Source of the DNA: a virus
Reading direction: 5' to 3' (one strand)
Length of the DNA: 20,171 nt
IMG/VR virus record: IMGVR_UViG_3300031997_000694
Coordinates: 1 to 20,171 of that record
Position 1 is the stretch's first letter. Every line of letters starts with the position of its first letter. A program made the translations under genes and the position numbers. The notes beneath the pieces are model-generated. The model was given only the letters and a program-made list of their open reading frames with translations, did not search any database and had not been told where the DNA came from. Positions 1,228 through 19,188 of this stretch are shown here, piece after piece.

Positions 1228-2571
1228 ATGAAGGCACTCCGCCCGTACCAAGAGGAGGCCGTCGACTTCCTCGCCGCTGCCGGCCGGGCCATCTACGCCG
1301 ACGGGCCCGGCACCGGCAAGACCATCGGGACCCTCGAGGTCATCCGACGCTGGAAGCCAGCCAACACCCTCATCGTCGTGCCCGTGCTTCAGGGCGCCGG
1401 GATCCTCAACTGGCAGCGCACGATCCGTGACCAGCTCGAGGTCACCACCCACATCGCCTACGGCGTGCCGGCGACCCGGCTGGCCGCCTACAAGGAGTGG
1501 GCCCGCCGAGGTGGGATCTGCGTCGTCGGGTACGAGTCCATGCGCTCCGACATCGACAACATCTACGACGTCGGTGCCGACGCCCTCGTCGCCGACGAGG
1601 CCCACCGGCTCGTCAACCGCAACGCCAAGACCACCAAGGCGTTCCGCCAGCTCGCCGGGTACGCCGACAAGCTGCTCCTCGTCACCGCCACCCCGATGGT
1701 CAACGAGGCCGACGATCTCTGGTCCCTGTTCAACCTGATCGACCGGAAGACGTACAGCAGCTACTGGCGGTGGGTCCACCAGCACTGCACCACCAACGTC
1801 ACCGACTTCGGTGGGAAGCTCCAGCGGCCCGTCGAGCTGGTGAAGGGTCTTCTGCCCGGCGCCGACGAGCAGATCCGGGCCCAGCTCGAGCCTGTCCTCA
1901 TGCAGCGCCCCATCAGCGAGCTGCTGCCCGACATCTCGACCCCCACCGAGGAGATCCTCGCCGTCGAGCTGTCACCCCAGGAGCGCCGGCACTACCAGGA
2001 GCTGAAGCGGAAGTACGTCACCGAGCTGGACGGCGAGCAGATCATCGCACTGAACGAGGTGAGCAAGATCACTCGGCTCCGCCAGCTCACCTCCGACTGG
2101 TCGAGCGTGTTCGCCGAGGTCGGCGCCGGCGCCAAGGTGCTCGCAGCGGCCGAGCTGGTCGGCGACATCTCCGAGCAGGTCGTCGTCATGTGCGCCTTCC
2201 AGGCGACATGCGACCGGCTCGTCGAGCAGCTCACCCAGCGGAAGGTCCCGGCCGTCGCCTACCACGGTGGCACTGAGAGGTCACCCCAAGCTCTGGAGGA
2301 TTTCATACAGGGCAAGACCCGCGTGCTCGTCGGGACCCTCGGGTCCCTCGGCGAGTCCGTCGACGGGCTACAGGTCGCCCGGATCCTCGTGCTGGTCGAC
2401 CGCCCCTGGAACCCGAAGGGCTACGACCAGGCGGTCGGCCGGGTGCGACGCAGCGGCCAGGAGAACGACGTCGTCGTCTACCACGTCGTGGCCCACGAGA
2501 CCATCGACGAGCGTGTCGCTGAGGCCCTCGTCACGAAGCGTGACGTGGCCGAGGCGCTGGGGTTCCGCTAG
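1228..2571 (+). CDS. SNF2-like superfamily 2 DNA helicase/translocase (447 aa)
   Basis: The motifs of a superfamily 2 ATPase are in order. RPYQEEAV at 5-12 is the Q-motif-like start; Walker A is DGPGTGKT at 25-32; Walker B is DEAH at 123-126; TATP at 153-156 is motif III; and the C-terminal RecA-like lobe ends with GRVRRSGQ at 404-411, the SNF2 'GRxxRxGQ' motif VI. SNF2 proteins usually read D-E-M-G-L-G-K-T at Walker A, so GPGTGKT is a variant common in compact phage helicases. At 447 residues it is just the ATPase core, with no nuclease or zinc domain. Such proteins move along duplex DNA and are usual in the replication or recombination block of phages. ATG 1228 follows the previous stop by three bases, so it is probably co-transcribed with the small paralogs. 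Its TAG overlaps the opposing gene's stop. Confidence 0.93.
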   Translation: MKALRPYQEEAVDFLAAAGRAIYADGPGTGKTIGTLEVIRRWKPANTLIVVPVLQGAGILNWQRTIRDQLEVTTHIAYGVPATRLAAYKEWARRGGICVVGYESMRSDIDNIYDVGADALVADEAHRLVNRNAKTTKAFRQLAGYADKLLLVTATPMVNEADDLWSLFNLIDRKTYSSYWRWVHQHCTTNVTDFGGKLQRPVELVKGLLPGADEQIRAQLEPVLMQRPISELLPDISTPTEEILAVELSPQERRHYQELKRKYVTELDGEQIIALNEVSKITRLRQLTSDWSSVFAEVGAGAKVLAAAELVGDISEQVVVMCAFQATCDRLVEQLTQRKVPAVAYHGGTERSPQALEDFIQGKTRVLVGTLGSLGESVDGLQVARILVLVDRPWNPKGYDQAVGRVRRSGQENDVVVYHVVAHETIDERVAEALVTKRDVAEALGFR

Positions 2572-2735: not shown

Positions 2736-2741
2736 AGCCTA
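2736..2741 (-). promoter_or_regulatory. Candidate leaderless -10 element TAGGCT
   Basis: TAGGCT ends six bases before the ATG at 2729. Its TAG is also the stop of the upstream 105-aa gene. One of eight TANNNT hexamers at identical spacing on this strand. Confidence 0.6.
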
Positions 2742-3056
2742 CAGCTCGGACGCTGGGGGCTCCATCTCGACGCCGAGGCTGGCGAAAGCGTTGCGGTCTC
2801 GGCGGTCGTGGTCCCTGGCGAGGCGCGCGCCACGGTCGACCTTCCGCTCCGTGCGGTCGGCCTTCACGTCGAGATCCATGACGTACTGGGCGAGCGAGCG
2901 GCCGTTCCCGGTGTCAACGTGGGTGGCGGCGGTGCTGATGTCGACCCCGTTGGCCTTCGACTGCTTCAGTCCCATGTAGCCGATGATGCTGGCGGGGAGA
3001 GCAGCTGCCAGAATCCCTCCTGCGGCGATGAGGGCGACAACGGTGTCTTCGTGCAT
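2739..3056 (-). CDS. Single-pass membrane protein, lysis-associated candidate (105 aa)
   Basis: ATG 3056 to TAG 2739. Residues about 5-28 (TVVALIAAGGILAAALPASI) form one hydrophobic segment close to the N-terminus. The rest is soluble and charged, with a helical stretch (VMDLDVKADRTERKVDRGAR) that could form a coiled coil. Actinobacteriophages often carry similar short proteins with an N-terminal membrane anchor and a hydrophilic tail near their lysis genes (DUF2746-type proteins come to mind), but I could not confirm family membership. It lies between the giant virion protein and the holin-like gene, with nine-base gaps on both sides, which suggests a second lysis or membrane factor. TAGAAT lies six bases before the ATG and there is no clear Shine-Dalgarno. 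Confidence 0.75.
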   Translation of the reverse strand: MHEDTVVALIAAGGILAAALPASIIGYMGLKQSKANGVDISTAATHVDTGNGRSLAQYVMDLDVKADRTERKVDRGARLARDHDRRDRNAFASLGVEMEPPASEL

Positions 3057-3062
3057 GGTGCG

Positions 3063-3068
3063 ATTCTA
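3063..3068 (-). promoter_or_regulatory. Candidate leaderless -10 element TAGAAT
   Basis: TAGAAT ends six bases before the ATG at 3056. Its TAG is the stop codon of the giant gene. Confidence 0.55.
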
Positions 3069-6000
3069 TCGAACGCCTGTTCGACTTCGCTTGGTCGTGA
3101 CCTTGACCTTCTTCGGCTTGTAGCGCCTGATGCCCTTGAGGAGAGACGCGGTCGATGTGACGCCGATGCTGCGTCGAAAGTTCGAGCGGCGCACACCCTT
3201 GATCTTGGGCAGCACGAGCCGAGATGCTCTCAGAGGCGCTGTGTGGACCGTAGCGGCCCGCGGCTTGCGTTTGGCTCGACTGCCCGCCCCGAGCGCTGTC
3301 GGGTGCCCCAGGGTGGCCTGGGTGCGGGCTGAGAGGGCCTTGATCTGCGAGTCGGGCATGAGGGGCAGCCCGAGGAACTTCGCCGTGTTGTGGAGCTGGT
3401 CGGCGCCCTGCCCGGACGGGAAGACAGCCTGCGACTGGGGGAGCCCGATGCCAATGCCGGCGAGCGCCTTGAGCGGGTCGACCTTCTCGACGCGCTGCCC
3501 GAACTCTCCGATGCCAGGCTTCGCTGTGCCGGGGCGGGGAGCGTCCAGGCCAGCTCGGATCCCGATGTCGAGGAACGGGTTGATCGACTGGGCGATCCCC
3601 TCGGGGGTGACCAGCGTGCCGGCACCCATGAGCGGGTTGAAGATGCGGGTGTTGACGGCCCCGAGGAGCGGGATGTTCATGACCGTCTGGTAGCCGTGGG
3701 GGAGCACGACGCCGAACTGCTGGACCTGGAGGTCCTGGTTGAGCCGGTCGAGGTAGAAGGCGATGGCGGTCATCTGCGGGTGGTCGATGGGGAACCGGGC
3801 CCCGATCTTCATGAGGCCCTTGATCCACGGGTAGAACGGGACGACGGCCTTGACGACCTGACGCTCGAACGGAGACAGGTCGTTGTAGTCGACGAGCGCC
3901 TTGTAGACAGCGTCGAGAGCCTGCGGGGGCGGCATGTTCTTGCGGATGTTCTTGAAGTAGACCGCGGCGCGCGCGACCTCGTCGATGACCGCGTGGCTGG
4001 CGCCAAGCGACGTGGTGGTGTGGGTGAACGCACCAGTGACGCCCCGCTTGTTGAACGCCTCCTTGACGCCGGCGATGCCCTTGGTCGGGGGGAACAGGCT
4101 GCGTTCGCCGCCGGTGTCGACGAAGGTGTTGCCGTGGATGCCCTCGGGCAGCTCGGCCGCCTTGTAGCCCCTCCACGCCTTCACGAAGTCCTGCAGCCGA
4201 GCGCCATCGACGGCGGCCATGACGATGTTGCCGAAGACACGGTGGACGTACCAGCGGGGCGACAGGGTCAGCACCAGGGTCTTCCACGGGTTGGTGATCT
4301 TCGAGGCTGCAGTGAGGGTCGGGTGCGCGTAGTCCTTCGTCCAGCGGCGGAGCACACCGTCGACGGTCTTCGGGATGATGAGGTCGCCGGCCTGGATGGA
4401 GCGCTCGGCGGTGGCAGGGTCGACAGAGACGAGGCCAGCGCGCCGGGGGCCCCAGGGGACCCAGCCGTCGGGGATGACACCGTCGGGGCCGACCTCGCGT
4501 GCCCACTGCTTCTCGACCATGTCGACGACCCCGTTGGTGCGGGCCTCCCAGGTGACCTCGTTGACGGCGGCGACGAGCGACTCTATGGACCGGTACCCGG
4601 TCTTGTCGGAGAGCACGCGGGCCTTGCGGGTCCCAGCCTCGACCTCCTTGCCGAGCGGCGTGTTGGGTCGCCCGAGGCGCATGGAGCCGTAGACGAGCTG
4701 CTCGGCTTGCTTCTGCGTGAAGTTGCGGACGTGGACCGGGTCGATGCCCAGCTCCTCGGCACGCGCGATCATGGCAGTAAAGGTCTGCGGAAGGTCATCA
4801 AGGGCAGCGGCGAGGGCAGGGTTGTCCTTCCCTTCGTCGATCAGGTCCTTGGTGGCCTTCCAGAGAGGCTGCCACTGAGCTGGGACACGAGCCACCGACG
4901 GCATCTCGGCGGAGTCCATGAAGCGCTCGAGGGTGCGCTTGGCGCTGGCCTGCAGCATCGCCTGCCGCTGGGCACGGGGCAGCGTGCCGTCGATGATCGA
5001 CTGCTTCAGGGTGTCCCGCTGCCGCACGAGCTGGGCCCGCTGCTTGATGATGGTGTCCATGCGCCGCTCCGACTCGGCGAACCGCTCGGCCGCCTTGCCC
5101 GACGTGACGCCTCGGGCGTACATCTGGCGGGGCGTGGCACCAGGGACCTCGGGCGGAGTCTGCGCTTCCTTGCCGAGCATGCGCGGCTCGGGCGGAATCT
5201 CGCGTGCCTTGAAGCCGGGGGTCAGCTCGGTGGGGAGCTGCTCTGGGTTGAGGTAGGTGTCGAGCAGCTCGCGGGTCCCCTGCGGGATGTTGATGCCGGC
5301 ACGGTTGCCAGCGAACCCGTCCTTGGTGTACTGCCAGAACTGGTTGAGCACCTGGCGGAGCTGCTCGTAGATGGGGGTGAGCCAGTGGCTGCCGGGGGCG
5401 TGCCCGGATGCGAGGTAGCCGACGAAGTCGTTGGCGAACCGCTCCTCGTGCTGCCGGGTCCACTTCCCGCCCTCGATGCCGTAGGCCCGCTCGAGGCGGC
5501 TGAGGTCTTCGGGGCTCATGATCTGGCGGAGGACGTGGGCGTTCTCGTGGACGAGGGTGCTGAAGTCGGCGTCTTGGAACAGCCGCACGATCATCTTGTC
5601 GGTCTCGCCGCCGAGGATGGTGAGGCCGAGCACCTTCTCGTGGAGCGTGGAGGCGAGCACCTGGGGGAGACCGAGGCCGTACGGGTCGAGCGCGTCGATG
5701 GCGTCCCGCACCTTGGGGGTCGGGTCGGCCATGATGTCGGCGAAGTCGCGCCAGTCTTCGTCTCGGACGGCGGCGGCTTCCTCGTTGACGAGCTTGTGGG
5801 CCTCCTCGAGCGCGCCGGTCTTGTCCCCCTCGGCGAGCATCGCTTCGATGTCACGCTGCCAGGACCGGTGACTGTCGACGGCGGCCAGGTAGTCCTTGAT
5901 CTCGCTGGCGCTCTCGGTGACTTGGGTGAGGTACCGCTCGGTCTCGGGGACGAGGGCCGCAGCGTGCTCGGCGGTCTGCGCGCCGCGCACGACGGGCACC

Positions 6001-9000
6001 TGACGTTCCACGGTCGGTGGGCGTTCCTTCGCCTTCGCTTCGAGGGACGCGAGACGCTCGCGCATCGGGTCGGCGTTCAGGTCGAGGTACGCCTGCCACG
6101 GGTCGTTCTGTGGGGTCCAGCTCCCGTCACGGATCGACTCGATGAGGTCGGAGCCGTGGGCGAGGGCGATGCCGACGTTCTGCCGGCTGATCTCGCTCTT
6201 GATGTAGCCCCACAGCAGGGCCTGCACCTCGTGGGGCTTCACGTCGCGGCCCAGTTCGGCGCTCATGTCGTCGGCCATCGTGCGGACCTTCTCAGCGAAG
6301 GCGTGGTAGTTGCCGACGCGGTCCCACACATGCGTGTCGGCCTCACCGAAGCCACGACCCATCCAGCTGTCGAGGGTGACGCCCATCGACGTCTCGGGGT
6401 TGGCGAGGTTGTCATGGAAGCTGAGGATCTTGGCGAGGGCCTCGGAGCCGTGGTACTCACGCACGGCCAGCTCGTGGGCGATCTCGTCGACGGTGCCCTT
6501 GGCGCCGGCCTTGATCTGCGCCTCGGCCATCGGGATCATGTCGTCGACCATCTGCGAGGTGACGTGCTTGGCGCTGAGCCGCTTGGCGTTGCCGCCGAAC
6601 AGCTCGCCCCGGCTGCGGACGTAGTCGTTCGTCCAGCCGTCCCATCCGTCGTACGGGTGGATGGTGTGACCGCTGAGGATCTCGAACACCCCGTACTGGC
6701 TCGAGGTGTACATGTGTGTGTCCTTCGCCAGATGCTTGAACAGCCGGGTGCCGGCGCGCAGCGACGGGGCCTGGGCGCTGCCTCGCTTCATCGGGGTCTG
6801 GTCGAACTCGTCGATCATCTCCTTCAGCGCGTCGATGTGGGTGCCGCTGCCGGCGAGGAATCGCTTGATGTTGGCGATGCCGGTGAGGGTGTTGCCGAGG
6901 TTGGTGGCTGGCGAGGCGCTGACGCTGGTGATGGCGAGCAGCTCGTAGGCTAGGTCGGCGGCGTCCATCTGGTGGCCGTTGAGGAGCGTGACGGTGCGGC
7001 CGCGTCCCCACTTCTCGATGGCGGCGTGGGACCGGTAGTACCAGGGGAGCATCTTGTCGACGTCGTAGCCGGCGTTGACAATCTCGTGGTACAGGGGCAT
7101 GCCAGGCTCGAGCTGCATGACGTTCTGCGCCAGGACGCCGGTGGTCGGCAGGGACTTCGGCTGCTTGACGCGCGCCTGGTACTCGAAGCGCTTGAAGTAG
7201 CTGTCGGGGCTAATGTCGCCGTGGGTCTTCGCCCACTGCACGGCGATGGAGTCCTGCAGCGCCATGATCTGGTCAATCTGTGGGGCCGTCAGGTTCTTGA
7301 GCTTGCCGCTCTCGACGGCGGCGTAGAGCTGCTGGGCGCGCCGGTCACGGAAGGTGTGGTTCTTGATGAAGGCACCGCTGATGTCGGGGCGGCCGACGTA
7401 CTCGGTGCTGATGAAGGCGTCCTCAGGGCGCTTGGCGCCGAGGTCGTAGACCGAGTCCTGGGCGCGCGCGTTGCCGAGACGCACGGCGTCGGAGCGGGAC
7501 CGGACGATCTCGGACGGCTCGATGTAGACCTTGCCGGCGTCGTCGACCCAGCCGCCGAGCACGACGTTGGCGTGGCCGTCGAACATGGCCTGGTAGTGCT
7601 TGGCGATCCCGTCGAGCAGCTCGGGGGTGACGGCTGCCTTCGGGATGCCCTCGACGCCAGGGAGGATGCTGACGACGTAGCGGCCGTGCTCGTTCGGTGC
7701 GACGACGAGCGAGTCGGTGTGAGGGTCCCAGGAGAAGCCGGGGTTCTCGGGGTCGTTGAGCATGGCGATGAGTGCCGCGCGCCGCTCGGCCCAGCTGGCG
7801 ACAGCCTTCTCGCCGGCGCCCCAAATGGCAGGGAGCCCGGAGCGGCTGGCGTCGAAGGTGCCCTTGATGGCTTCCTGCGCGTCTTGGATCCGGCCGAGGC
7901 GCTCGCCGAGCTTGCCGAGGGTGTCGTTGTCAGAGGCAACCTTGCCTTCAGCCTTCATGCGCTCACGCATCACGGCCGGCTCCATGCGAAGCGCGCGGCC
8001 CGACTCGCTCTGTGCCTTGCGGAACATGCGCTGCTCGGCCTTGGTCAGAATCGGCTGGGTGTCGTCGAGAGCGAGCGGGAGGCCCTTGTTGCCGAGGCGG
8101 GACTCTTGGATCGTGCGGAAAGCGTCGATGCGCTGCCGCTTCCACAGGTCAGTGGCGTAGGCGATGTCGGCCTCGAAGGCGGGGTTGTCCCGCAGACCGG
8201 GCGGGAGGACTTCCTGCCGTACCCCTCGAGCCACGGCGGTCTCGTCACTCATGCCGAGCGCCTGCTGCCACTCGTGGATCCCGGTGAGGCGTGCGGTGAT
8301 CTCGTCGCCGGCGATGCGGGTCGCCTTGACGACGTCGCCGTCGACGAGTGGCAGGATGTGGAGCGCCGCAGCGTCGAGGGTCGCCCGGACGATGGGGCTG
8401 TTGTTGGCGGCACGCGCGGCGGTCTGCGCGGCGCGCTCGGTGGTCCGCAGCTCGGTACGGACCTCGTGGGCCAGGAGACGCTCCTCGACGCCGGCCAGGA
8501 GGCGGGTGTGAAGTGGGAGCGCCTCCTCGCCGGGGAGCTGCTTGCCGAACACGAACGTGCCGACCCTGCCTCGAGGCTTGGAGCCTTCGGCGGCGATGGC
8601 TTCGGCGCGTTGGCGCATGATCTCGCGGCCCTGCTCGAAGGCATCCTTCGGGATCATCGGGGATCCGCCGGCTTCGGGATTGCGGACAGCGGCTTCGGCG
8701 TTGGCCTTGGTCTCGTCGGCGATCAGCTCACGTTCGCCGACGGCGACCGGGTCAGCGGTGCTGGTGTAGGTCGTGTGCCCGTAGAGCGGGTCGGCCATGC
8801 GCTCGGGCATGAGGCCGAGCTTCTGTGGCGCGAAGGTCCCTTCGACGGGGGCAGCTGCTGTGGGCGCCTGGTAGGCGACATCAGCCCATTCGTTGGGGAG
8901 CACAGCTGAGCCGGAGGTTGGGGTCGGCTGGTTAGTCACTCGGCCGTATTCGGCAAGCGTGTCGGGGTGACTGGCCTGCCTTGCGACACTCTCCGGCACG

Positions 9001-10622
9001 GTGACTTGCTTCACGACACCGTCGGCGCCTGCGTAGTTGCGGGCGTAGCTTTCCTCAGTGTGGAACAGCGGGTTCGTGGCGGCGCCCCCTGCAGGCTCAC
9101 CTCGGTACAGGGTGACCGGAGCCTCTGGTTCGGGTGGCCGACTAGCTAGGAGAGACTCGTTCGCTGCTGCAGGCGGCGGCGCCGTGGCTTCCGCATGGGC
9201 AGCAGCGTCGGCGCTTGCCTGCTCGAGCGGACTAAGGCCAGTAGTAGCTGCCCGTTGAGCATCGATCTCACCAGCCGCCGCTGCCGCCTCGGCATCGATC
9301 TTCGAGGTGATGAGAGCGGCATTCTGCCCGCGGGTCTCTGTGGCGAGGGCCCGGCGGGCCTCGGGGCTGAACATGCGTGCATGGGCCTGGTAGGCAATCT
9401 CCTCGCCGTGGCGGCTGAAGTCGTTGAGGTTCTCCCGGTGGCCGAAGTAGTCGTGGATAGCCCGGAACCGGTTGTTCTCCTCGGGGGTCCAGAGTGGGTG
9501 CTCCTCACCGGGACCGGTGTTGTTGATCTTCATACGGCCGTTCTGCTCGATGTCGTTGAACATCTCCTGGGCAGTGGCGTACGGCTGGGCGTGGTTGTTG
9601 TCGGCGACGACTTCGACACGAATACCTAGCCCACCCTGGTCGCGTGGCCGGGTCAGGAAATCGTACTGAGCGTCCCGTTCGTTGGCGAGTGCCTGGTAGG
9701 AAGCCTGGGTGGCTGGGTCGTTGGGGGTGGCGAAGTCGGGGTGGTTGTAGGTGTCGGCCATCGTCTGGCGCGCAGCTGGGCTCAGGTCGGGGAGGCTGGT
9801 GTCGACCGGGGTCGGCTGCTCGAGGCCGTGCTGCGTCCCGTACTGGTCGTGGTACGCCTGCACCTCGGGGTGGACCTGAGCTGCCTGCCGCACCGGGGTG
9901 TCCTCGACGCCGGCCAGGATGTCCCGACCGTAGGAGCCGCCGGGGCCCTGCGCTTCGGCGATGGACGCTGCCTCTGCGGTCGGCTTGGTGACGACGCTGG
10001 CGGCGGCGAGCTTGGTCGCTTCGCCGGCCTGGGCGTAGGGGCGGATGATCTTGGTGTAGGCGCTCTTGAACGGGTGGGCGACGACGTGGGCGCGCGCGGC
10101 GCTGGCCCGAGCCGTGGCAGCTCGAGCAGCGGCTGCCTCAGCGCCGACGGTGTCCCCGGCAGCCGCAGCCGTGGCGGCAGCCTCGTCGGCTGCTCGGGCA
10201 CTGCTCATGAACGCAGACTCGCCGCCGCTGGCGATGATGGAGGCGTTGAGGGTGTCCTCGACGAGTGCAGGGAGGATCCCGCCCCGGCGGTTCCATGCGG
10301 GCTGGACGTACTGGTCTCCGCCGCCGAGCGTGGCGAGCGGCTTGTGGGCGAGCCCGCCGGTGACGGTGTCGGCGGTGGAGAGGAAGCTGCGTCCGACCCC
10401 TTCGGCGAAGTTCTGCGTGGTGTCGCCGGGGTTGGTGACCATGCCGACGCCGAGCTGCCCGATGCCCTGGACGAACTTGCCGGGCATCTCGAGGAGGTTG
10501 CCTAGACCGAGGCCACCCCAGCCGCCCCCGTTGTCAGCGCTCGGGTACGACGAACCGCCCCCGGCTTGCGCCTGGCGCTTGCGACGTTGAGCTGCGATCT
10601 CCCAAGGGGGGGTGTACGCCAT
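3066..10622 (-). CDS. Giant multidomain virion/polyvalent protein with zincin motif (2518 aa)
   Basis: ATG 10622 to TAG 3066. Order of regions: a Gly-rich, mildly hydrophobic N-terminus (about 20-110); an Ala-rich helical stretch (about 145-180); HDYFGH at 390-395 with ETRGQN at 429-434; VTLYRGE around Y506, suggestive of an ADP-ribosyltransferase fold; a GGWVDD block at W1025; a helical domain from about W1194 (PWYY) through TLDSW (D1418, W1420) to LLWGY (W1471); HENAH at 1692-1696, a zincin HExxH metalloprotease motif with a candidate third ligand at E1726; a probable coiled coil about 1840-1905; SPRWYVHR (W2124) and YNDLSPFER (Y2246) with PFYPW at 2262-2266; and a basic Lys/Arg tail over the last 70 residues. 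Such proteins in other phages are packaged and ejected with the genome, and some protect it or modify the host. It follows the adaptor and internal-protein genes, the usual place of ejection proteins. The motif readings are by eye; no RNA polymerase or lysozyme signature was seen. Confidence 0.88.
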   Translation of the reverse strand: MAYTPPWEIAAQRRKRQAQAGGGSSYPSADNGGGWGGLGLGNLLEMPGKFVQGIGQLGVGMVTNPGDTTQNFAEGVGRSFLSTADTVTGGLAHKPLATLGGGDQYVQPAWNRRGGILPALVEDTLNASIIASGGESAFMSSARAADEAAATAAAAGDTVGAEAAAARAATARASAARAHVVAHPFKSAYTKIIRPYAQAGEATKLAAASVVTKPTAEAASIAEAQGPGGSYGRDILAGVEDTPVRQAAQVHPEVQAYHDQYGTQHGLEQPTPVDTSLPDLSPAARQTMADTYNHPDFATPNDPATQASYQALANERDAQYDFLTRPRDQGGLGIRVEVVADNNHAQPYATAQEMFNDIEQNGRMKINNTGPGEEHPLWTPEENNRFRAIHDYFGHRENLNDFSRHGEEIAYQAHARMFSPEARRALATETRGQNAALITSKIDAEAAAAAGEIDAQRAATTGLSPLEQASADAAAHAEATAPPPAAANESLLASRPPEPEAPVTLYRGEPAGGAATNPLFHTEESYARNYAGADGVVKQVTVPESVARQASHPDTLAEYGRVTNQPTPTSGSAVLPNEWADVAYQAPTAAAPVEGTFAPQKLGLMPERMADPLYGHTTYTSTADPVAVGERELIADETKANAEAAVRNPEAGGSPMIPKDAFEQGREIMRQRAEAIAAEGSKPRGRVGTFVFGKQLPGEEALPLHTRLLAGVEERLLAHEVRTELRTTERAAQTAARAANNSPIVRATLDAAALHILPLVDGDVVKATRIAGDEITARLTGIHEWQQALGMSDETAVARGVRQEVLPPGLRDNPAFEADIAYATDLWKRQRIDAFRTIQESRLGNKGLPLALDDTQPILTKAEQRMFRKAQSESGRALRMEPAVMRERMKAEGKVASDNDTLGKLGERLGRIQDAQEAIKGTFDASRSGLPAIWGAGEKAVASWAERRAALIAMLNDPENPGFSWDPHTDSLVVAPNEHGRYVVSILPGVEGIPKAAVTPELLDGIAKHYQAMFDGHANVVLGGWVDDAGKVYIEPSEIVRSRSDAVRLGNARAQDSVYDLGAKRPEDAFISTEYVGRPDISGAFIKNHTFRDRRAQQLYAAVESGKLKNLTAPQIDQIMALQDSIAVQWAKTHGDISPDSYFKRFEYQARVKQPKSLPTTGVLAQNVMQLEPGMPLYHEIVNAGYDVDKMLPWYYRSHAAIEKWGRGRTVTLLNGHQMDAADLAYELLAITSVSASPATNLGNTLTGIANIKRFLAGSGTHIDALKEMIDEFDQTPMKRGSAQAPSLRAGTRLFKHLAKDTHMYTSSQYGVFEILSGHTIHPYDGWDGWTNDYVRSRGELFGGNAKRLSAKHVTSQMVDDMIPMAEAQIKAGAKGTVDEIAHELAVREYHGSEALAKILSFHDNLANPETSMGVTLDSWMGRGFGEADTHVWDRVGNYHAFAEKVRTMADDMSAELGRDVKPHEVQALLWGYIKSEISRQNVGIALAHGSDLIESIRDGSWTPQNDPWQAYLDLNADPMRERLASLEAKAKERPPTVERQVPVVRGAQTAEHAAALVPETERYLTQVTESASEIKDYLAAVDSHRSWQRDIEAMLAEGDKTGALEEAHKLVNEEAAAVRDEDWRDFADIMADPTPKVRDAIDALDPYGLGLPQVLASTLHEKVLGLTILGGETDKMIVRLFQDADFSTLVHENAHVLRQIMSPEDLSRLERAYGIEGGKWTRQHEERFANDFVGYLASGHAPGSHWLTPIYEQLRQVLNQFWQYTKDGFAGNRAGINIPQGTRELLDTYLNPEQLPTELTPGFKAREIPPEPRMLGKEAQTPPEVPGATPRQMYARGVTSGKAAERFAESERRMDTIIKQRAQLVRQRDTLKQSIIDGTLPRAQRQAMLQASAKRTLERFMDSAEMPSVARVPAQWQPLWKATKDLIDEGKDNPALAAALDDLPQTFTAMIARAEELGIDPVHVRNFTQKQAEQLVYGSMRLGRPNTPLGKEVEAGTRKARVLSDKTGYRSIESLVAAVNEVTWEARTNGVVDMVEKQWAREVGPDGVIPDGWVPWGPRRAGLVSVDPATAERSIQAGDLIIPKTVDGVLRRWTKDYAHPTLTAASKITNPWKTLVLTLSPRWYVHRVFGNIVMAAVDGARLQDFVKAWRGYKAAELPEGIHGNTFVDTGGERSLFPPTKGIAGVKEAFNKRGVTGAFTHTTTSLGASHAVIDEVARAAVYFKNIRKNMPPPQALDAVYKALVDYNDLSPFERQVVKAVVPFYPWIKGLMKIGARFPIDHPQMTAIAFYLDRLNQDLQVQQFGVVLPHGYQTVMNIPLLGAVNTRIFNPLMGAGTLVTPEGIAQSINPFLDIGIRAGLDAPRPGTAKPGIGEFGQRVEKVDPLKALAGIGIGLPQSQAVFPSGQGADQLHNTAKFLGLPLMPDSQIKALSARTQATLGHPTALGAGSRAKRKPRAATVHTAPLRASRLVLPKIKGVRRSNFRRSIGVTSTASLLKGIRRYKPKKVKVTTKRSRTGVR
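3069..3084. repeat. Inverted repeat TCGAAC-N4-GTTCGA
   Basis: Perfect six-base arms separated by GCCT, covering the last sense codons of the giant gene and lying directly upstream of TAGAAT. It could be an operator overlapping the promoter of the membrane protein gene or a weak transcript-end hairpin; there is no T-run. Confidence 0.4.
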
Positions 10623-10628
10623 ACGTCC

Positions 10629-10634
10629 AGGTTA
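10629..10634 (-). promoter_or_regulatory. Candidate leaderless -10 element TAACCT
   Basis: TAACCT ends six bases before the ATG of the giant gene at 10622. Its TAA is the stop codon of the 388-aa gene. Confidence 0.55.
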
Positions 10635-11798
10635 GCGACCCTGGTACTTTGCGGCGAGGACCGCTGCGGCCCGGTACTTGCCGGCCTGCTGGAGCTTCTT
10701 CACCTCGTCCTGCCAGGTCCGCTTGGGTCCGGGCCGGAAGGTGTTGAGCAGACCGCCAGGGCTCAGGACGTTCTTGGCGGCCTCGCCGAAGGTGCGGCCA
10801 CGGGTCGATCCGATCTCGCCGACGGCCCGCTGGTAGGCGGGGCCGTTGAGGATCTGCTTGTACTGCTGCGGAGCGCCGAGGCGCATGGCGTTGCCACGGT
10901 CGGCGGAGATGTCTGCCTGCCCGAAGCTGTTGTAGTTGGCGAGGCCCTGCCGGCGAAGGTCGGTGTTCGCTTGCCCGGAGGCGATGCCTTGCTGCCACAG
11001 CGCGTCTTCTCGGGCTGCCTTGCGCTGCTGGGCCCAGGTCGGGTTGTACCGGGGGTCCATGCGCGGGTCGCTCTGCCGGTCCTGCACGGACCAGTCGTGC
11101 TGCTGCTTCGCCATGTCCCACTGCTGGCGGGCCTGCTGGGCGTCACGCTGCGCCTGGATGTTTGCCTCGTCCTCGCGGGTGCTGATGTCAGCGAGCGCGC
11201 CGAGACGTGCCTGTCCGAGCCCGCCGCGCATGCGGCTGGCCTCGGAGGTGACACCGGCCTGGACGAGCGGGACGTCGGCTTGCCGGCTGGCAGCTCCAGC
11301 GGTCATCGCTGCCTTCTGTGCGGCGACGCCAGCGTCGGCGGGGGCGAAGCTCTGGAGGTGCTGACCCTGCTGCTGCTGGAGGGACGCGGCGGCCTGCTGG
11401 TCGAGCTGGGCGTTGGCCCCGTTGTAGACACCGGCGTACCGGCCAGGGAGACTGTTGACGACGCCTTGCGACAGGTTCTCTCGGCCCGACAGGTCCTGCA
11501 GGGCCGTCCGAAACTGGTTCTCGATGTCGCCGCGTGCCTGGGCGAACGAGGCGTGGTAGGCGTTGAGGTAGTCGGAAGGCATCTGGTCAGTCGGAGGTGG
11601 CGCCTGCTGGCGAGGCGGCGCCGTGGGGAGCGCCTGCTGCACCTTGCCGGCGGCGTTCGAGACCTTGTTGATCGGGGCGTTGAGGAAGCCACCCCAGCCG
11701 GGGACCTGCGGCTTGATGCCGAACGCCTTGCCGACGGCGCGGCCAGCCTGCTGCCCAGCTCCGTTGAGGAAGCTCCCGAACCCCTTGGTGCTCGCCAT
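10632..11798 (-). CDS. Gln/Ala-rich internal virion protein candidate (388 aa)
   Basis: ATG 11798 to TAA 10632. The start overlaps the upstream stop by one base (TGATG), so the two are translationally coupled. The N-terminus has Gly-rich segments (FGSFLNGAGQQAGRAVG), then a Pro/Gln linker near residues 58-75. A long helical, Gln/Ala/Arg-rich body follows, including LQQQQGQHLQ and QAQRDAQQARQQWDMAKQQ, likely coiled coil. No enzyme motif was seen. Position between the adaptor genes and the giant protein, and a composition like that of podovirus internal core or ejection proteins, suggest a protein packaged inside the capsid and released with the DNA. That role is inferred; a tail-associated helical protein is the main alternative. 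Confidence 0.8.
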   Translation of the reverse strand: MASTKGFGSFLNGAGQQAGRAVGKAFGIKPQVPGWGGFLNAPINKVSNAAGKVQQALPTAPPRQQAPPPTDQMPSDYLNAYHASFAQARGDIENQFRTALQDLSGRENLSQGVVNSLPGRYAGVYNGANAQLDQQAAASLQQQQGQHLQSFAPADAGVAAQKAAMTAGAASRQADVPLVQAGVTSEASRMRGGLGQARLGALADISTREDEANIQAQRDAQQARQQWDMAKQQHDWSVQDRQSDPRMDPRYNPTWAQQRKAAREDALWQQGIASGQANTDLRRQGLANYNSFGQADISADRGNAMRLGAPQQYKQILNGPAYQRAVGEIGSTRGRTFGEAAKNVLSPGGLLNTFRPGPKRTWQDEVKKLQQAGKYRAAAVLAAKYQGR

Positions 11799-12139
11799 CA
11801 GAAGCCACCACCCAGGGTGGTCCCGAGTGTCGCCATGATCCGGTTGTACTGGAGATCCGCCAGGTGGCGGTTCAGGAGACGGTCGACGTCGCTGTTCTGG
11901 TAGTTGAAGTCCTCACGGGCCTGGTCGGCTCGGACGCCAACCTGCCCGCCCCGGACGGTGCCGCGCGCGCTCGCGGCGTTGGTGATGTTGGTGAGGCCCC
12001 GGCCGTACATGACACCGAGACGGTTCTTGGTCAGCCCGGAGTCTTCACGGGACTGGGCCTCGTTCTGCTGGAGCTGCTGGAGCTGGATCGGGAGAGGCGA
12101 TCCGCCCGGCGCGCTGTAGAAGTCTTGCAGGGAGGCCAT
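11798..12139 (-). CDS. Small helical protein, virion-associated candidate (113 aa)
   Basis: ATG 12139 to TGA 11798. An extended N-terminus (FYSAPGGSPLPIQ) is followed by a Gln/Glu-rich helix (LQQLQQNEAQSRED). Next come a Gly/Arg segment (SARGTVRGGQVGVRADQ) and a last helix (DVDRLLNRHLADLQYN), and the protein ends in TLGGGF. The ARG..RGG pattern followed by a helix recurs loosely in the next protein (SRMRGGLGQARLGALADI), so the two may be related in structure. It is coupled to that gene by a TGATG overlap. Together they probably encode internal or tail-core proteins. No specific family was recognised. Confidence 0.78.
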   Translation of the reverse strand: MASLQDFYSAPGGSPLPIQLQQLQQNEAQSREDSGLTKNRLGVMYGRGLTNITNAASARGTVRGGQVGVRADQAREDFNYQNSDVDRLLNRHLADLQYNRIMATLGTTLGGGF

Positions 12140-12145
12140 GCAGTC

Positions 12146-12151
12146 AGTCTA
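12146..12151 (-). promoter_or_regulatory. Candidate leaderless -10 element TAGACT
   Basis: TAGACT ends six bases before ATG 12139. Its TAG is the stop of the adaptor candidate. No Shine-Dalgarno is visible upstream of this ATG. Confidence 0.6.
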
Positions 12152-12808
12152 GACCGAGTACCACTGATCGACGATCTGCGGGTAGGTGTCCTCCTGGCCC
12201 ACCATCAGGGCCGCCTGCATCTGCGTGAGGAGCCCCTGGGCGACCTGGAGGTGGCCACCGGCGACGTCGGCGTTGTCGTCGTCGACGTAGGCGAGGAACA
12301 GCGCGTACTCGACCAGGATCTGATGGTACTCAGCGGGGAACGCCGGCGTGGTGACAGTGCCGCCGCCGCCGGCGAGGCTGAGCGTGCTCGGCGTGGCGAG
12401 GTAGTCGATGATGATGGAGGTCGTGGCCGTGGGGGTCGGGTACACCTGGAGGGTGTTGGCGTAGATCCGGTAGAAGCCCGGCTGGCCAACGGTGGTGACG
12501 AAGTCGCCGAACCGGGCGCGCGGCACGTTGTTGCCCTTGAGGGGCCCCATGAGCACCTTGTCCGTGTCGTTCCAGACGACGAGGACACGCTGCGCGTCGA
12601 CGGGGAGCGCCACCGAGGTGGCTGCGGCGCCGATGGAAAGGGTGGCGGTGGCCTGCTTGTGGGCCCACTCGGAGCTGCCCATCTGGTTGTGGACCCAGGA
12701 GTAGGCGTCGTTCAGGAGGTTGACCCACTCGGCTTGGCTGACGATGCTGTTCGCCGTGTCGTGGAAGCGCGCAGCGCAGCGAACAGAGAGAGCCGTGACC
12801 GTTGCCAT
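12149..12808 (-). CDS. Head-to-tail adaptor / tubular protein A-like candidate (219 aa)
   Basis: ATG 12808 to TAG 12149. N-terminal helices (EWVNLLNDAYSWVHNQM) are followed by a beta-rich middle (ATATLSIGAAATSVALPVDA, LQVYPTPTATTSIIIDYLA), then a C-terminal helical region with FPAEYHQILVEYALFLAY at about 157-174 followed by DDDNADV. A 'P-x-x-x-H-x-x-L-x-x-Y-A' helix after a beta sandwich is typical of the dodecameric adaptors that sit below the portal in short-tailed phages (T7 gp11 and similar proteins). Size and location next to the hub candidate agree. The assignment rests on pattern memory and context rather than an alignment. The gap to the upstream gene is 16 bases and holds TAGGCT. Confidence 0.72.
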   Translation of the reverse strand: MATVTALSVRCAARFHDTANSIVSQAEWVNLLNDAYSWVHNQMGSSEWAHKQATATLSIGAAATSVALPVDAQRVLVVWNDTDKVLMGPLKGNNVPRARFGDFVTTVGQPGFYRIYANTLQVYPTPTATTSIIIDYLATPSTLSLAGGGGTVTTPAFPAEYHQILVEYALFLAYVDDDNADVAGGHLQVAQGLLTQMQAALMVGQEDTYPQIVDQWYSV

Positions 12809-14831: not shown

Positions 14832-16064
14832 CTAGAAGGTCGGAGTCGAGACGCGCACGAAGACGTGGCTGTTGCGGTTCGTGACGTTGAGGTTCTGGTA
14901 CGCCTTGAAGCGTGCCTCGACCGCGTCGCTGTTGTCGAGCGCCTTGTAGAGCACTCGGCCGTCGTCGTCGTCCCAGGTGAAGTCGAGGCCGACGAAGCGG
15001 CTGATCTCGCTCTTGGTGATGCCGAAGATGTAGGAGTCCGGGTTGAACCGGTCCTTCACCAGCGTGCCGACGGTGAGCTTGACGCCTTCCCAGCCGGCGG
15101 GGAGCTTCTCGGTGGAGACGTCGTACCGCTTGCGGGCCTGCAGATCCTGGGCGAGCTTGGTCACCTGGGAGTGCTCGGCGAGCCAGAGGTCGGGGGTGGA
15201 TCCATCACCCTCGGTCTGGACGATCTCCTTCGAGCGCTCGAGGAGCACCTCGGAGATCGGGGTCGACGTGGTTCCGTTGGTCTTCGCTGCCCACTGTGGC
15301 TCGGTGGCCGGGTCGAGGTTGGCGTAGACCTGGGTGTCGTGGATGAGGTGGCGGAGACCGTTCATCTCGCCACCGGCTGCTGTCGCTGCCTGGAAGTTCC
15401 CCTGGCGTGCGATGTAGTCACCCGTGGTGGCACCGGCGACTGCCGGGGCGAAGGTGACGACCTTCGTGGTCAGGTTGTTGGCGGTGACGATGGTCGTGCC
15501 GCGCGAGACGCCGGTCGACCCGTTGATGATGTCGATGGCCTCGTTCACGAAGACGGCCCGCAGCTCGGCACGGTCGGCGGAGCCGAACGTCTGCGTGGTC
15601 GTGGTGCCCGCCGTGCTGGCGGTACCGGTGAGCGACCCGAGGTACAGCGTGGACGAGATCGACACGGCCGCGTTGTAGCTCTGGCGGGAGCAGTCGTTCT
15701 TGAGGTCCTTCTCGGCGCCCTTCAGCTCGTACTCGAGCGCGCGGGTGAACGATCCGCTGTCGTTCTTGGTGAGGGCCTGCGCCGGTCCCGACACCTTGAT
15801 GGTGTGGTACAGGTACGCGAGGTTGTCGCGCACTTGCTGGAAGCGCTGCCGGTCGGCCGTGGGGAGCGCAGCCAGCTCGCCGCGTGCTCCGGTCGAGGTC
15901 GACCGTCCAGTGTGGACGCTCCAGACCGCCTGGCGGCCTTGGATGTCCTCCTCGTTGGTGCTGATCTCGGACCAGACCGGGTTGGCGCTGTTGACCGACT
16001 CACGGAGGCCGGGTCCGTAGTCGTCCTTGAGGGCTGCGTCGAAGTTGGTGAGGGACTGGGGCAT
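14832..16064 (-). CDS. Major capsid protein, HK97-fold type (410 aa)
   Basis: ATG 16064 to TAG 14832. The sequence opens MPQSLTNFDAALKDDYGPGL. It follows the usual opening of phage coat proteins of this size: an N-terminal arm, then VWSVHTGRSTSTGARGE and a long helix (LEYELKGAEKDLKNDCSRQS), then a Thr/Ala/Ser-rich beta region (LTGTASTAGTTTTQTFGSAD). The C-terminal half includes DLWLAEHSQVTKLAQDLQ, and the protein ends VFVRVSTPTF. It directly follows the scaffold and portal, the fixed position of the coat gene. It would form the icosahedral shell around the scaffold. No separate protease gene was seen. TATTGT is six bases before the ATG, and a strong hairpin follows the stop, as expected for the most abundant late product. 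Confidence 0.88.
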   Translation of the reverse strand: MPQSLTNFDAALKDDYGPGLRESVNSANPVWSEISTNEEDIQGRQAVWSVHTGRSTSTGARGELAALPTADRQRFQQVRDNLAYLYHTIKVSGPAQALTKNDSGSFTRALEYELKGAEKDLKNDCSRQSYNAAVSISSTLYLGSLTGTASTAGTTTTQTFGSADRAELRAVFVNEAIDIINGSTGVSRGTTIVTANNLTTKVVTFAPAVAGATTGDYIARQGNFQAATAAGGEMNGLRHLIHDTQVYANLDPATEPQWAAKTNGTTSTPISEVLLERSKEIVQTEGDGSTPDLWLAEHSQVTKLAQDLQARKRYDVSTEKLPAGWEGVKLTVGTLVKDRFNPDSYIFGITKSEISRFVGLDFTWDDDDGRVLYKALDNSDAVEARFKAYQNLNVTNRNSHVFVRVSTPTF

Positions 16065-17046: not shown

Positions 17047-19188
17047 CTACCTGCCCATCGACGCAGCTTGGCTGTCAGTCGATGCGCCGGGGACCTTGCC
17101 AGGCTGTCCAGGGCCGCCGATGCCGGCGACCTTGTTGGCGCTGGGCGTGCCAGCGAGGGGGCTCGCCGCCTGACCTGATGCGACGTCGAGCGGGTTGTTC
17201 GGCTGCCCGGTGGCGGGGTTGACGTACATCGGGGCCCCGCCGGCCGGCTGGGTGCCTTGCGGGCCGGGGGGCTGTGCAAGGTCCGGGCGGCCAGCGATGG
17301 GCGGCAGCGAGCCAGGGTCGGCCTGGTTGGTGCCGGGCACGCCGGGGCCAGCAAGCTGCTGGAGAACGAGGCTCGCGTGCATGTCGGAGTGCGCGTCGAC
17401 GCACGCCTTGATGTGCGGGGGCAGGCTGTCGTACTCCTGGGACTTCCGGTAGTCGTTGTGCTCAGTCATGTGGACCTCGTGGTTGTCCCACCCGTGGACC
17501 TGGCACTGGACCCCGACGCGCAGCCGGCTGTTCTCGCGCTGCGCCTGCTTCGAGTCGAGGTTCATGTGCTCCATCAGGAACTCGCCGCCAGGCAGGTCGA
17601 GGAGCTTGAACAGGTCCTTCGGCTCCTTGATGAGCCCGAGCGGGGCGAGCTGCATGGCGAGCTGCGTGCGGGCCGAGCGGGAGCGGGGCAGCGTCGACCC
17701 AGCCTCGATGTGGACGTCCATGACGGTGGCGATGTCGGCGGCGGAGAACCGCTGGGCCTCGAGGTCGCCGTCTTCGCTCCAGGTGCGGATGATGCGGTCC
17801 TCGGTCCAGTACTGCTTGATGAGCATGAGCATATGCCACCCGACGTTCTGGACGAACTGGGAGAGCAGCTTGGCGCTGATGGCGAGCTTGGTGTCGTCGG
17901 CTTCCTGCAGGGCGAGGATGGCAGCGGCGGGCATGTTGGAGCTGCCGGCGCCACCTTGGGTGGCGTCGTTCTGCCCGGAGCGTTCGCCCATCTCGTTGTC
18001 GGAGCGGGTCATGCCCTGCTCGTGTTGGGTCATCCACCCGGAGTCGGGGATGTCCCACTTCGGAGCGCCGTTGACGTTGGCGTACTGGATGATCTCGGCG
18101 CGGCTGGTGATGCGGCTCGCGTCGATGGATCCGATGGGGGCCATCAGCTTCGGCATGATGGTGCGGCGGAGCTGGGCCTCACGGGAGCGCGCGTCGTTGT
18201 AGTCGGTCTGCATCGGGATGAGGTCGTCGACCCAGGTGCGTCCCTGGGCGTCGCCGAAGCCGGGGAGCAGGTAGCACGGGACGAACGGGAGCTTGCCGTG
18301 GTCGTACGGGAAGGGCATGGGACCCTCGAGGATCGTCTTGCCGCACCACGTCACGACCATGCCCTTCGGCGCGGCGCGCCGGCCGGGCTTCATCCAGAAC
18401 TGGTGGACCTTCACGAAGTCGCCCTTGCTGTTGTCCTTGTCGTGGGCGACGCCGCTGGCGTTGGACAGATCGTTGACTTCGTCGAGGATGGTGCGGCCGC
18501 TCTCGGCGCCGTCGGGCATCTCGCCCCAGCGCTCCCACACACCCTCCTTGGTCATGGTGACGGTGCGGGAGCACCAGCCGACGGCGTCCCAGTCGGTGGC
18601 CGACGGGTCGGCACCCATCTCGTAGGCGGGGACCTTCTCAATGACGATCTCGCCCTGCTTCAGCTCGCCGCTGGGGTCGAGGTCGAGGGACGGGCCGGCG
18701 TCGGGGTCCCAGGCCACATGGGCGTAGGACCAGCCGAGCGTGACTGGCCAGAACATGAAGCTGGTGAGGAAGAAGCCCCACTTCACCCGGTCCATCTCGT
18801 GGGTGAGCATCCGAGTGCCGACCTTGGCGGCCGCGACGTCGTTGTCGTCGTCCGATGCGGGACGGCACTCGGGGATGGGGTTCTCCTTCGTGAGCTTCGC
18901 CACGGCACGTTCGACGATGGAACCCATCTTGTTGATCGTGAGACGCACGGGCGCGTTGGGGTCGTCCGGGTTGGTCTTGGGGCGAGCCCACTGCTTCCGG
19001 TTCTCGTCCCAAATGACCCACTGGTGGCCGAGCATGTACGCCATGTTCATCTTGAGGCGCAGCTCGGGCAGCTTCTTCCGGCCGTCGGAGACCTTGCGGT
19101 CGAGCCAAGCGACCAGCTCGACAGGATCCTTCGGCGGGATGAACGGGTTGCCGCCCTTGGGGGACGGGTCAGTGATGTTGTCGGCCAC
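17047..19188 (-). CDS. Portal protein, P22-like type (713 aa)
   Basis: GTG start at 19188, stop TAG at 17047. The N-terminal part has VELVAWLDRKVSDGRK and AYMLGHQWVIWDE. It is followed by VRLTINKMGSIVERAVAKLT at about 81-100 and NPIPECRPAS, the 'N-x-x-x-x-x-V-x-x-x-x-x-x-x-x-x-x-P-x-x-x-x-x-P' pattern near the start of podovirus portals. VPAYEMGADPSATDW and SYAHVAWDP fit the wing region. A long helical stretch follows, and the last 100 residues are low-complexity Pro/Gly/Gln (PGPQGTQPAGGAP). Portals form the dodecameric ring at the packaging vertex. Size matches P22 gp1 (about 725 residues). It sits between terminase-block genes and scaffold. The GTG start is supported by TAGGCT six bases upstream. 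Confidence 0.9.
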   Translation of the reverse strand: MADNITDPSPKGGNPFIPPKDPVELVAWLDRKVSDGRKKLPELRLKMNMAYMLGHQWVIWDENRKQWARPKTNPDDPNAPVRLTINKMGSIVERAVAKLTKENPIPECRPASDDDNDVAAAKVGTRMLTHEMDRVKWGFFLTSFMFWPVTLGWSYAHVAWDPDAGPSLDLDPSGELKQGEIVIEKVPAYEMGADPSATDWDAVGWCSRTVTMTKEGVWERWGEMPDGAESGRTILDEVNDLSNASGVAHDKDNSKGDFVKVHQFWMKPGRRAAPKGMVVTWCGKTILEGPMPFPYDHGKLPFVPCYLLPGFGDAQGRTWVDDLIPMQTDYNDARSREAQLRRTIMPKLMAPIGSIDASRITSRAEIIQYANVNGAPKWDIPDSGWMTQHEQGMTRSDNEMGERSGQNDATQGGAGSSNMPAAAILALQEADDTKLAISAKLLSQFVQNVGWHMLMLIKQYWTEDRIIRTWSEDGDLEAQRFSAADIATVMDVHIEAGSTLPRSRSARTQLAMQLAPLGLIKEPKDLFKLLDLPGGEFLMEHMNLDSKQAQRENSRLRVGVQCQVHGWDNHEVHMTEHNDYRKSQEYDSLPPHIKACVDAHSDMHASLVLQQLAGPGVPGTNQADPGSLPPIAGRPDLAQPPGPQGTQPAGGAPMYVNPATGQPNNPLDVASGQAASPLAGTPSANKVAGIGGPGQPGKVPGASTDSQAASMGR

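Follow-up and report, generated by a model that had tools for sequence, protein, structure and literature searches.

A modular giant protein in a phage late operon, probably of the polyvalent type, with interchangeable enzyme-like modules

What kind of protein is encoded by a single gene that fills 37% (7,557 of 20,171 bases) of a viral contig? The window, i.e., the whole 20,171-base stretch of DNA analysed here, is a viral contig classed as linear with a G+C content of 67%. A reading made from the letters alone (hereafter the sequence-only reading) had proposed that this gene encodes a packaged polyvalent protein, delivered with the phage DNA to counter host defences. The concept of polyvalent proteins in phages is a proposal derived from domain architecture (Iyer et al., 2017, PMC5512222). 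The gene is real and lies where that reading had put it, with the strand, which had been left unstated, being minus: it runs from an ATG at 10622 to a stop at 3066. A random frame would stay open over this length with a chance of about 2e-25 at the window's G+C, the third-position G+C is 88%, and other phage contigs encode full-length homologues that are 25-41% identical to it.

3066-10622, minus strand: giant polyvalent-type protein of 2,518 amino acids, about 273 kDa (open frame and homologues)
3069-3332, minus strand: basic C-terminal tail, residues 2431-2518 (25 Lys/Arg and no Asp/Glu in the C-terminal 88 residues)

No tandem repeats were found within the gene, in agreement with the earlier remark that structural repeats are lacking. 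The basic tail is likewise present in the window giant; however, it does not hold as a general trait, since the corresponding tails are neutral in the relatives L092 and L096, with an excess of Lys/Arg in L094 and L188.

The surroundings of the giant gene are those of a late operon of a short-tailed phage (podovirus), on the minus strand, transcribed in the order portal, scaffold-like protein, major capsid protein, 492-aa protein, adaptor, 113-aa protein, 388-aa protein, giant and 105-aa protein.

17047-19188, minus strand: portal protein, P22-type (Pfam E 2e-32, phrog_156 E 5e-49)
16970-16101, minus strand: 289-aa protein in the scaffold position (assigned by position in the operon)
14832-16064, minus strand: major capsid protein (phrog_14242 E 3e-48)
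between major capsid and adaptor, minus strand: 492-aa tail/stabilisation-like protein
12149-12808, minus strand: head-tail adaptor, SU10_adaptor (Pfam E 3e-18)
11798-12139, minus strand: 113-aa small protein, predicted ejection-cassette partner (conserved upstream in L110, L185, L190, L200 and L003)
10632-11798, minus strand: 388-aa helical Gln/Ala-rich protein, predicted ejection-cassette partner (conserved directly upstream of the giants in L110, L191 and L200)

The giant is therefore encoded near late/virion genes, as polyvalent proteins are, with portal, major capsid and adaptor genes directly upstream and a terminase seen in relatives only (e.g., Shocker). The description of the giant as following small internal-protein candidates is fair, as the 113-aa and 388-aa proteins precede it in transcription order. 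Directly after the giant, a 105-aa protein (2739-3056, minus strand), whose N-terminal part has a single strongly hydrophobic segment and whose tail is charged, occupies a holin-like position, and an SNF2-family helicase gene (1228-2571, plus strand) is convergent with the late operon.

A megablast search of the window matched no phage record, and its capsid protein shares only about 25% identity with those of Jasmine, Shocker and similar podoviruses. All four examined phages (Shocker, Jasmine, ctEqG8 and ctLwi270) have a gene of very large size at the corresponding place of their late operon, with a protein of about 350-430 amino acids encoded upstream, adjoining or two small genes away. A scan based on the capsid alignment yielded 79 viral loci, the nearest of which encode complete giants homologous to that of the window. 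The high G+C and the actinobacterial hosts of the nearest cultured relatives indicate that the host is likely an actinobacterium. Three-gene ejection cassettes are formed by gp14-15-16 of T7 and gp7-20-16 of P22. By this likeness, the two upstream helical proteins together with the giant would form such a cassette, which would suit a protein that is mainly an ejection or inner-core component similar to gp16 of T7 or P22, forming a DNA conduit and carrying its extra domains as passengers that do nothing in the host.

We divided the giant into core and modules by means of pairwise alignments and domain profiles.

10209-10529, minus strand: N-terminal conserved segment, residues 32-138 (profile matches in most close giants, including the core-only L097 and L200)
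9300-9845, minus strand: 'HD' domain, residues 260-441 (FRAIHDYFGH...GEE..H...TETRGQN; phrog_3170 E 1e-28)
8808-9146, minus strand: tentative ADP-ribosyltransferase (ART)-like module, residues 493-605 (shared only with L092)
7218-8510, minus strand: core N region, residues 705-1135 (profile matches in all close giants except L200)
6099-7154, minus strand: DUF7178 / HhH-GPD DNA-glycosylase-like domain, residues 1157-1508 (putative catalytic Lys1398 and Asp1418)
5235-5675, minus strand: zincin-like metallopeptidase domain, residues 1650-1796 (HENAH at 1692-1696 and Glu1726/1727)
3360-4946, minus strand: core C region, residues 1893-2421 (profile matches in all close giants)

Complete homologues in the same slot of relatives span 1,561-2,630 aa; the lengths are 2379 aa in L092, 2321 in L093, 2574 in L094, 2604 in L096, 1561 in L097 and 2630 in L188, with 2460 aa in L187, where the gene is open at the left end. 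The giant of L200 measures 1403 aa. The HD, ART-like, glycosylase-like and zincin-like modules are optional and their order is not fixed. In L092 the ART-like module lies ahead of HD, and in L094, L095 and L187 the HD domain stands between the glycosylase and zincin modules (about residues 1480-1689 in L094 numbering) and the ART-like module is absent; L096 and L188 are devoid of HD. The giants of L093 and L094 share 61% and 64% identity on the two sides of the HD domain, which is absent in L093; the alignment shows a clean gap there, about 235 residues long and matching the domain exactly. The idea that different giants acquired HD separately was not upheld, as a single clade was not rejected for the tree of the HD domain (AU test, p 0.64) and transposition and loss within the family fit equally well. 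The L097 and L200 giants consist of core only, with none of the modules, and still keep the slot; the core regions being the sole parts common to the giants, this speaks for the conduit function outlined above.

As judged from these alignments, the giant family is modular and not one continuous structural fold. Such a fold had been named by the sequence-only reading as the finding that would refute it; domain mobility rules it out for about one third of the protein, whereas the core (residues 705-1135 and 1893-2421) could well be a conventional ejection or structural component. The family itself, with its core-plus-payload layout and its members differing by single modules, is new.

The most widespread of the modules is the HD domain, which is encoded in at least 574 viral loci, either as a stand-alone protein of about 220-260 aa, such as the 243-aa form of L105, or at very different positions inside proteins of up to 3,643 aa. 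Its match, phrog_3170, is a family of unknown function. In the alignment, NDxFRAxHDxxGH, GE, H and TExxGQ are near-invariant, a degree of conservation that hints at an enzymatic role or a metal site. The AF2 model reaches a pLDDT of about 90 or above over most of residues 289-480, and neither Foldseek nor VIA-align found a fold match to it among solved structures. A relationship to aromatic amino acid hydroxylases, considered for the H-x4-H motif, found no support (Foldseek, tryptophan hydroxylase at E 5.2; VIA-align, phenylalanine hydroxylase at Z 2.1 over 32 residues). Among viral proteins, the BFVD structure matches of HD carry the names head-morphogenesis, ART-PolyVal-like, NAT_SF and LPD. 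HD lies beside curated polyvalent domains in ctQRb9 (ART-PolyVal 1e-19, LPD22 5e-14), L233 (LPD22, ART-PolyVal) and L236 (LPD38 1e-35), and it is paired with DUF7178 in the L238 protein. The window giant itself matched no curated polyvalent Pfam domain (ART-PolyVal or the LPD series), either whole or in 420-residue pieces, and LPD38 was not found in the window. That HD is a widespread polyvalent module, with no counterpart among solved folds, is a new recognition.

Stand-alone HD genes of about 220-260 aa also occur in Micromonosporaceae and Streptomyces genomes (L208-L223, L235, L241), where they were possibly domesticated from phages. The phage genome that encodes the L095 giant has elsewhere a further HD-like match, which is weak (E 3e-5) and contains a TGA in frame (L102, G005 35500-39000; match at G005 36767-37177).

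The zincin-like module retains its two His, the Glu between them and the downstream Glu without exception in all giants that have the region, as well as in ctQRb9 and vir555. Its best PDB profile match is a zinc metallohydrolase lipoprotein (E 3e-4). A metallopeptidase (MPTase) of the zincin type is the commonest, not obligatory, hub domain of polyvalent proteins, for which self-processing was proposed (Iyer et al., PMC5512222); the window giant has such a domain by its HExxH and Glu and by homology to those of ctQRb9 and vir555, the model not confirming the fold. The vir555 protein (1,974 aa; L010 6781-12705, from a Methanomicrobiales virus) is encoded between internal virion and tail proteins of a T7-like archaeal virus. 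The ART-like module resembles its namesake at the motif level only, in a region where the model is not confident, and gave no match in Pfam; a partial ORF (L131 3-503), also devoid of a Pfam match, contains a YRG...SWT motif weakly resembling it.

A zincin-like domain separates the enzyme block from core C, and this raises the possibility that the giant is a polyprotein, which would cut itself before packaging; only part of the fragments would then enter the virion, the others serving in assembly. DdrB of P1 is a proposed precedent, whereas the N4 virion RNA polymerase, likewise equipped with an MPTase domain, enters the virion without being cleaved (PMC5512222). We regard this scenario, which overlaps with our preferred one and differs in timing, as rather unlikely. 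That the giant is itself an N4-type virion RNA polymerase, which it recalls in size, podovirus context and zincin domain, is improbable in the extreme: no RNA polymerase match appeared for the whole protein in Pfam, PHROGs or NCBIfam, for its 420-residue pieces in Pfam, or in the solved-structure sequence search, and the domains that were identified occupy most of the chain.

For residues 1157-1508, the Pfam match to DUF7178 in the giant is weak (E 0.005), and the argument is built on motif and structure. Lys1398 and Asp1418 are invariant in seven aligned giants; they are spaced by 20 residues, and L246 has a spacing of 18 in its endonuclease III-type motif, as befits the catalytic Asp of HhH-GPD enzymes and the Lys of their bifunctional members. 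The motif GEKTGNFF...ATIDMW of L238 reads against GRKTANVV...TVDTH of endonuclease III-type proteins in the same sense. In a structural alignment of the AF2 model (mean pLDDT 45), the top 12 entries were all HhH-GPD glycosylases, led by M. jannaschii OGG, with Z 9.4 over 172 of 205 residues for this low-confidence model. Pa-AGOG (7.5), MagIII (6.6), EndoIII (6.3) and mouse OGG1 (5.4) followed, and the best unrelated entry reached Z 4.9 over 54 residues, values to be read with the low confidence of the model in mind and with the fact that helical models easily give middling Z. The other searches gave no support: hhalign of the region against HhH-GPD enzymes was not significant (E 0.05-0.08) and no better than control domains, a solved-structure sequence search found no match, and the Foldseek E-values for the same model (mean pLDDT 45) were not significant. 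Since the prediction from the motif was made first and agreed with the later structural ranking, we favour the assignment and consider that DUF7178 probably adopts the two-domain helical HhH-GPD DNA-glycosylase fold. This reading of DUF7178 is new; the DUF7178 member gp165 of Skog had been annotated 'glycosylase' by its depositors, and the word is absent from the text of Iyer et al. (PMC5512222).

At least two disparate domains are thus combined in one chain (HD, HhH-GPD-like and zincin-like, their activities predicted), each of them mobile or found elsewhere alone, and the several separate domain signatures noticed earlier are borne out by profile matches and by alignments with relatives. These domains also weigh on the conduit explanation: at 25-40% identity the zincin, glycosylase and HD modules keep their catalytic-type residues unchanged, which decay of passengers would not allow, and the same modules are found alone or in other protein contexts. 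Hence, we hold it improbable that the giant is mainly a conduit.

Among known systems, the 3209-aa polyvalent protein of ctQRb9 (UOF81042) is likewise a large late-region protein with unrelated enzyme-like domains and a zincin, and it shares HD and zincin with the window giant in sequence. It differs in having the Pfam domains ART-PolyVal and LPD22, whereas the window giant, in which no curated Pfam polyvalent domain was matched, has in addition a DUF7178/HhH-GPD-like domain and an actinophage-type core. Arthrobacter phage Jasmine gp28 and Microbacterium phage Shocker gp37 occupy the same slot and are distantly homologous in core C via the intermediates L098-L101 (the core C profile reaches these intermediates, Shocker gp37 and, with E 1e-9, ctEqG8 weakly), but the profiles detected none of the HD, ART-like, glycosylase-like and zincin modules in them. 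DUF7178 and HD are fused in Rhodococcus phage E3 gp205, annotated 'structural protein', and are neighbours among structural genes in Mycobacterium phage Sebata (gp106-gp107) and Gordonia phage Skog (gp165-gp166); these are smaller proteins of large-genome phages, lacking the podovirus core, and no zincin was detected in those scanned. The Microbacterium podovirus proteins Burro gp27 and Akoni gp31 (L103 4189-17664, L104 5985-19448) are similar in being very large and in coming from phages of actinobacteria; however, domain profiles showed no homology to any region of the giant, and their genes lie before the portal gene, unlike those of the window giant family. At more than 4,400 aa they also show that the window giant, which had been presented as a large instance, is not exceptional in size (PMC7302621). 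In Burro virions, a protein of about 250 kDa was presumed to be gp27 (PMC7302621).

Taken from architecture and context, the polyvalent reading is well supported because the modules are mobile and because HD stands beside ART-PolyVal, LPD22 and LPD38 in relatives. What stands of the earlier proposal is a multidomain architecture in the late region, with modules gained, lost and permuted; the counter-defence role and the injection are suggested by the genome slot. We therefore postulate that the giant is probably a phage-type polyvalent protein that joins a conserved ejection/virion core to interchangeable enzyme modules. The slot, the conserved two-protein cassette and the analogy with Burro gp27 suggest that it would be packaged in the capsid together with the 113-aa and 388-aa proteins and would leave with the DNA, the core helping in passage or packaging. 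The zincin-like domain could cut the chain and release the modules before, during or after injection. Within the first minutes of infection, the glycosylase-like module might act on bases of the incoming phage DNA or of the host DNA. Early infection might also be favoured by the ART-like and HD modules, through modification of host targets.

Tentatively, these elements may be combined further. The giant would be a conserved, injected 'chassis' with exchangeable payload slots in podoviruses related to Arthrobacter and Microbacterium phages; a delivered glycosylase would excise bases at the moment of entry, from the incoming DNA or from that of the host, and so either repair the phage genome or act as a weapon against host or modified DNA; and HD would be a new enzyme family, which hundreds of phages share and which Micromonosporaceae have domesticated in their chromosomes. 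We put this combined reading forward as a speculation that is less likely than not to hold.

The findings draw attention to the HD domain, whose near-invariant residues recur in phages of many hosts and whose confident AF2 model is without a match among solved structures. They suggest that DUF7178 functions as a DNA glycosylase of the HhH-GPD type, which may enter the cell along with the phage DNA. Finally, the giant family amounts to a natural experiment on module function: on a constant core, relatives differ by a single module (L093 and L094) or have none (L097).
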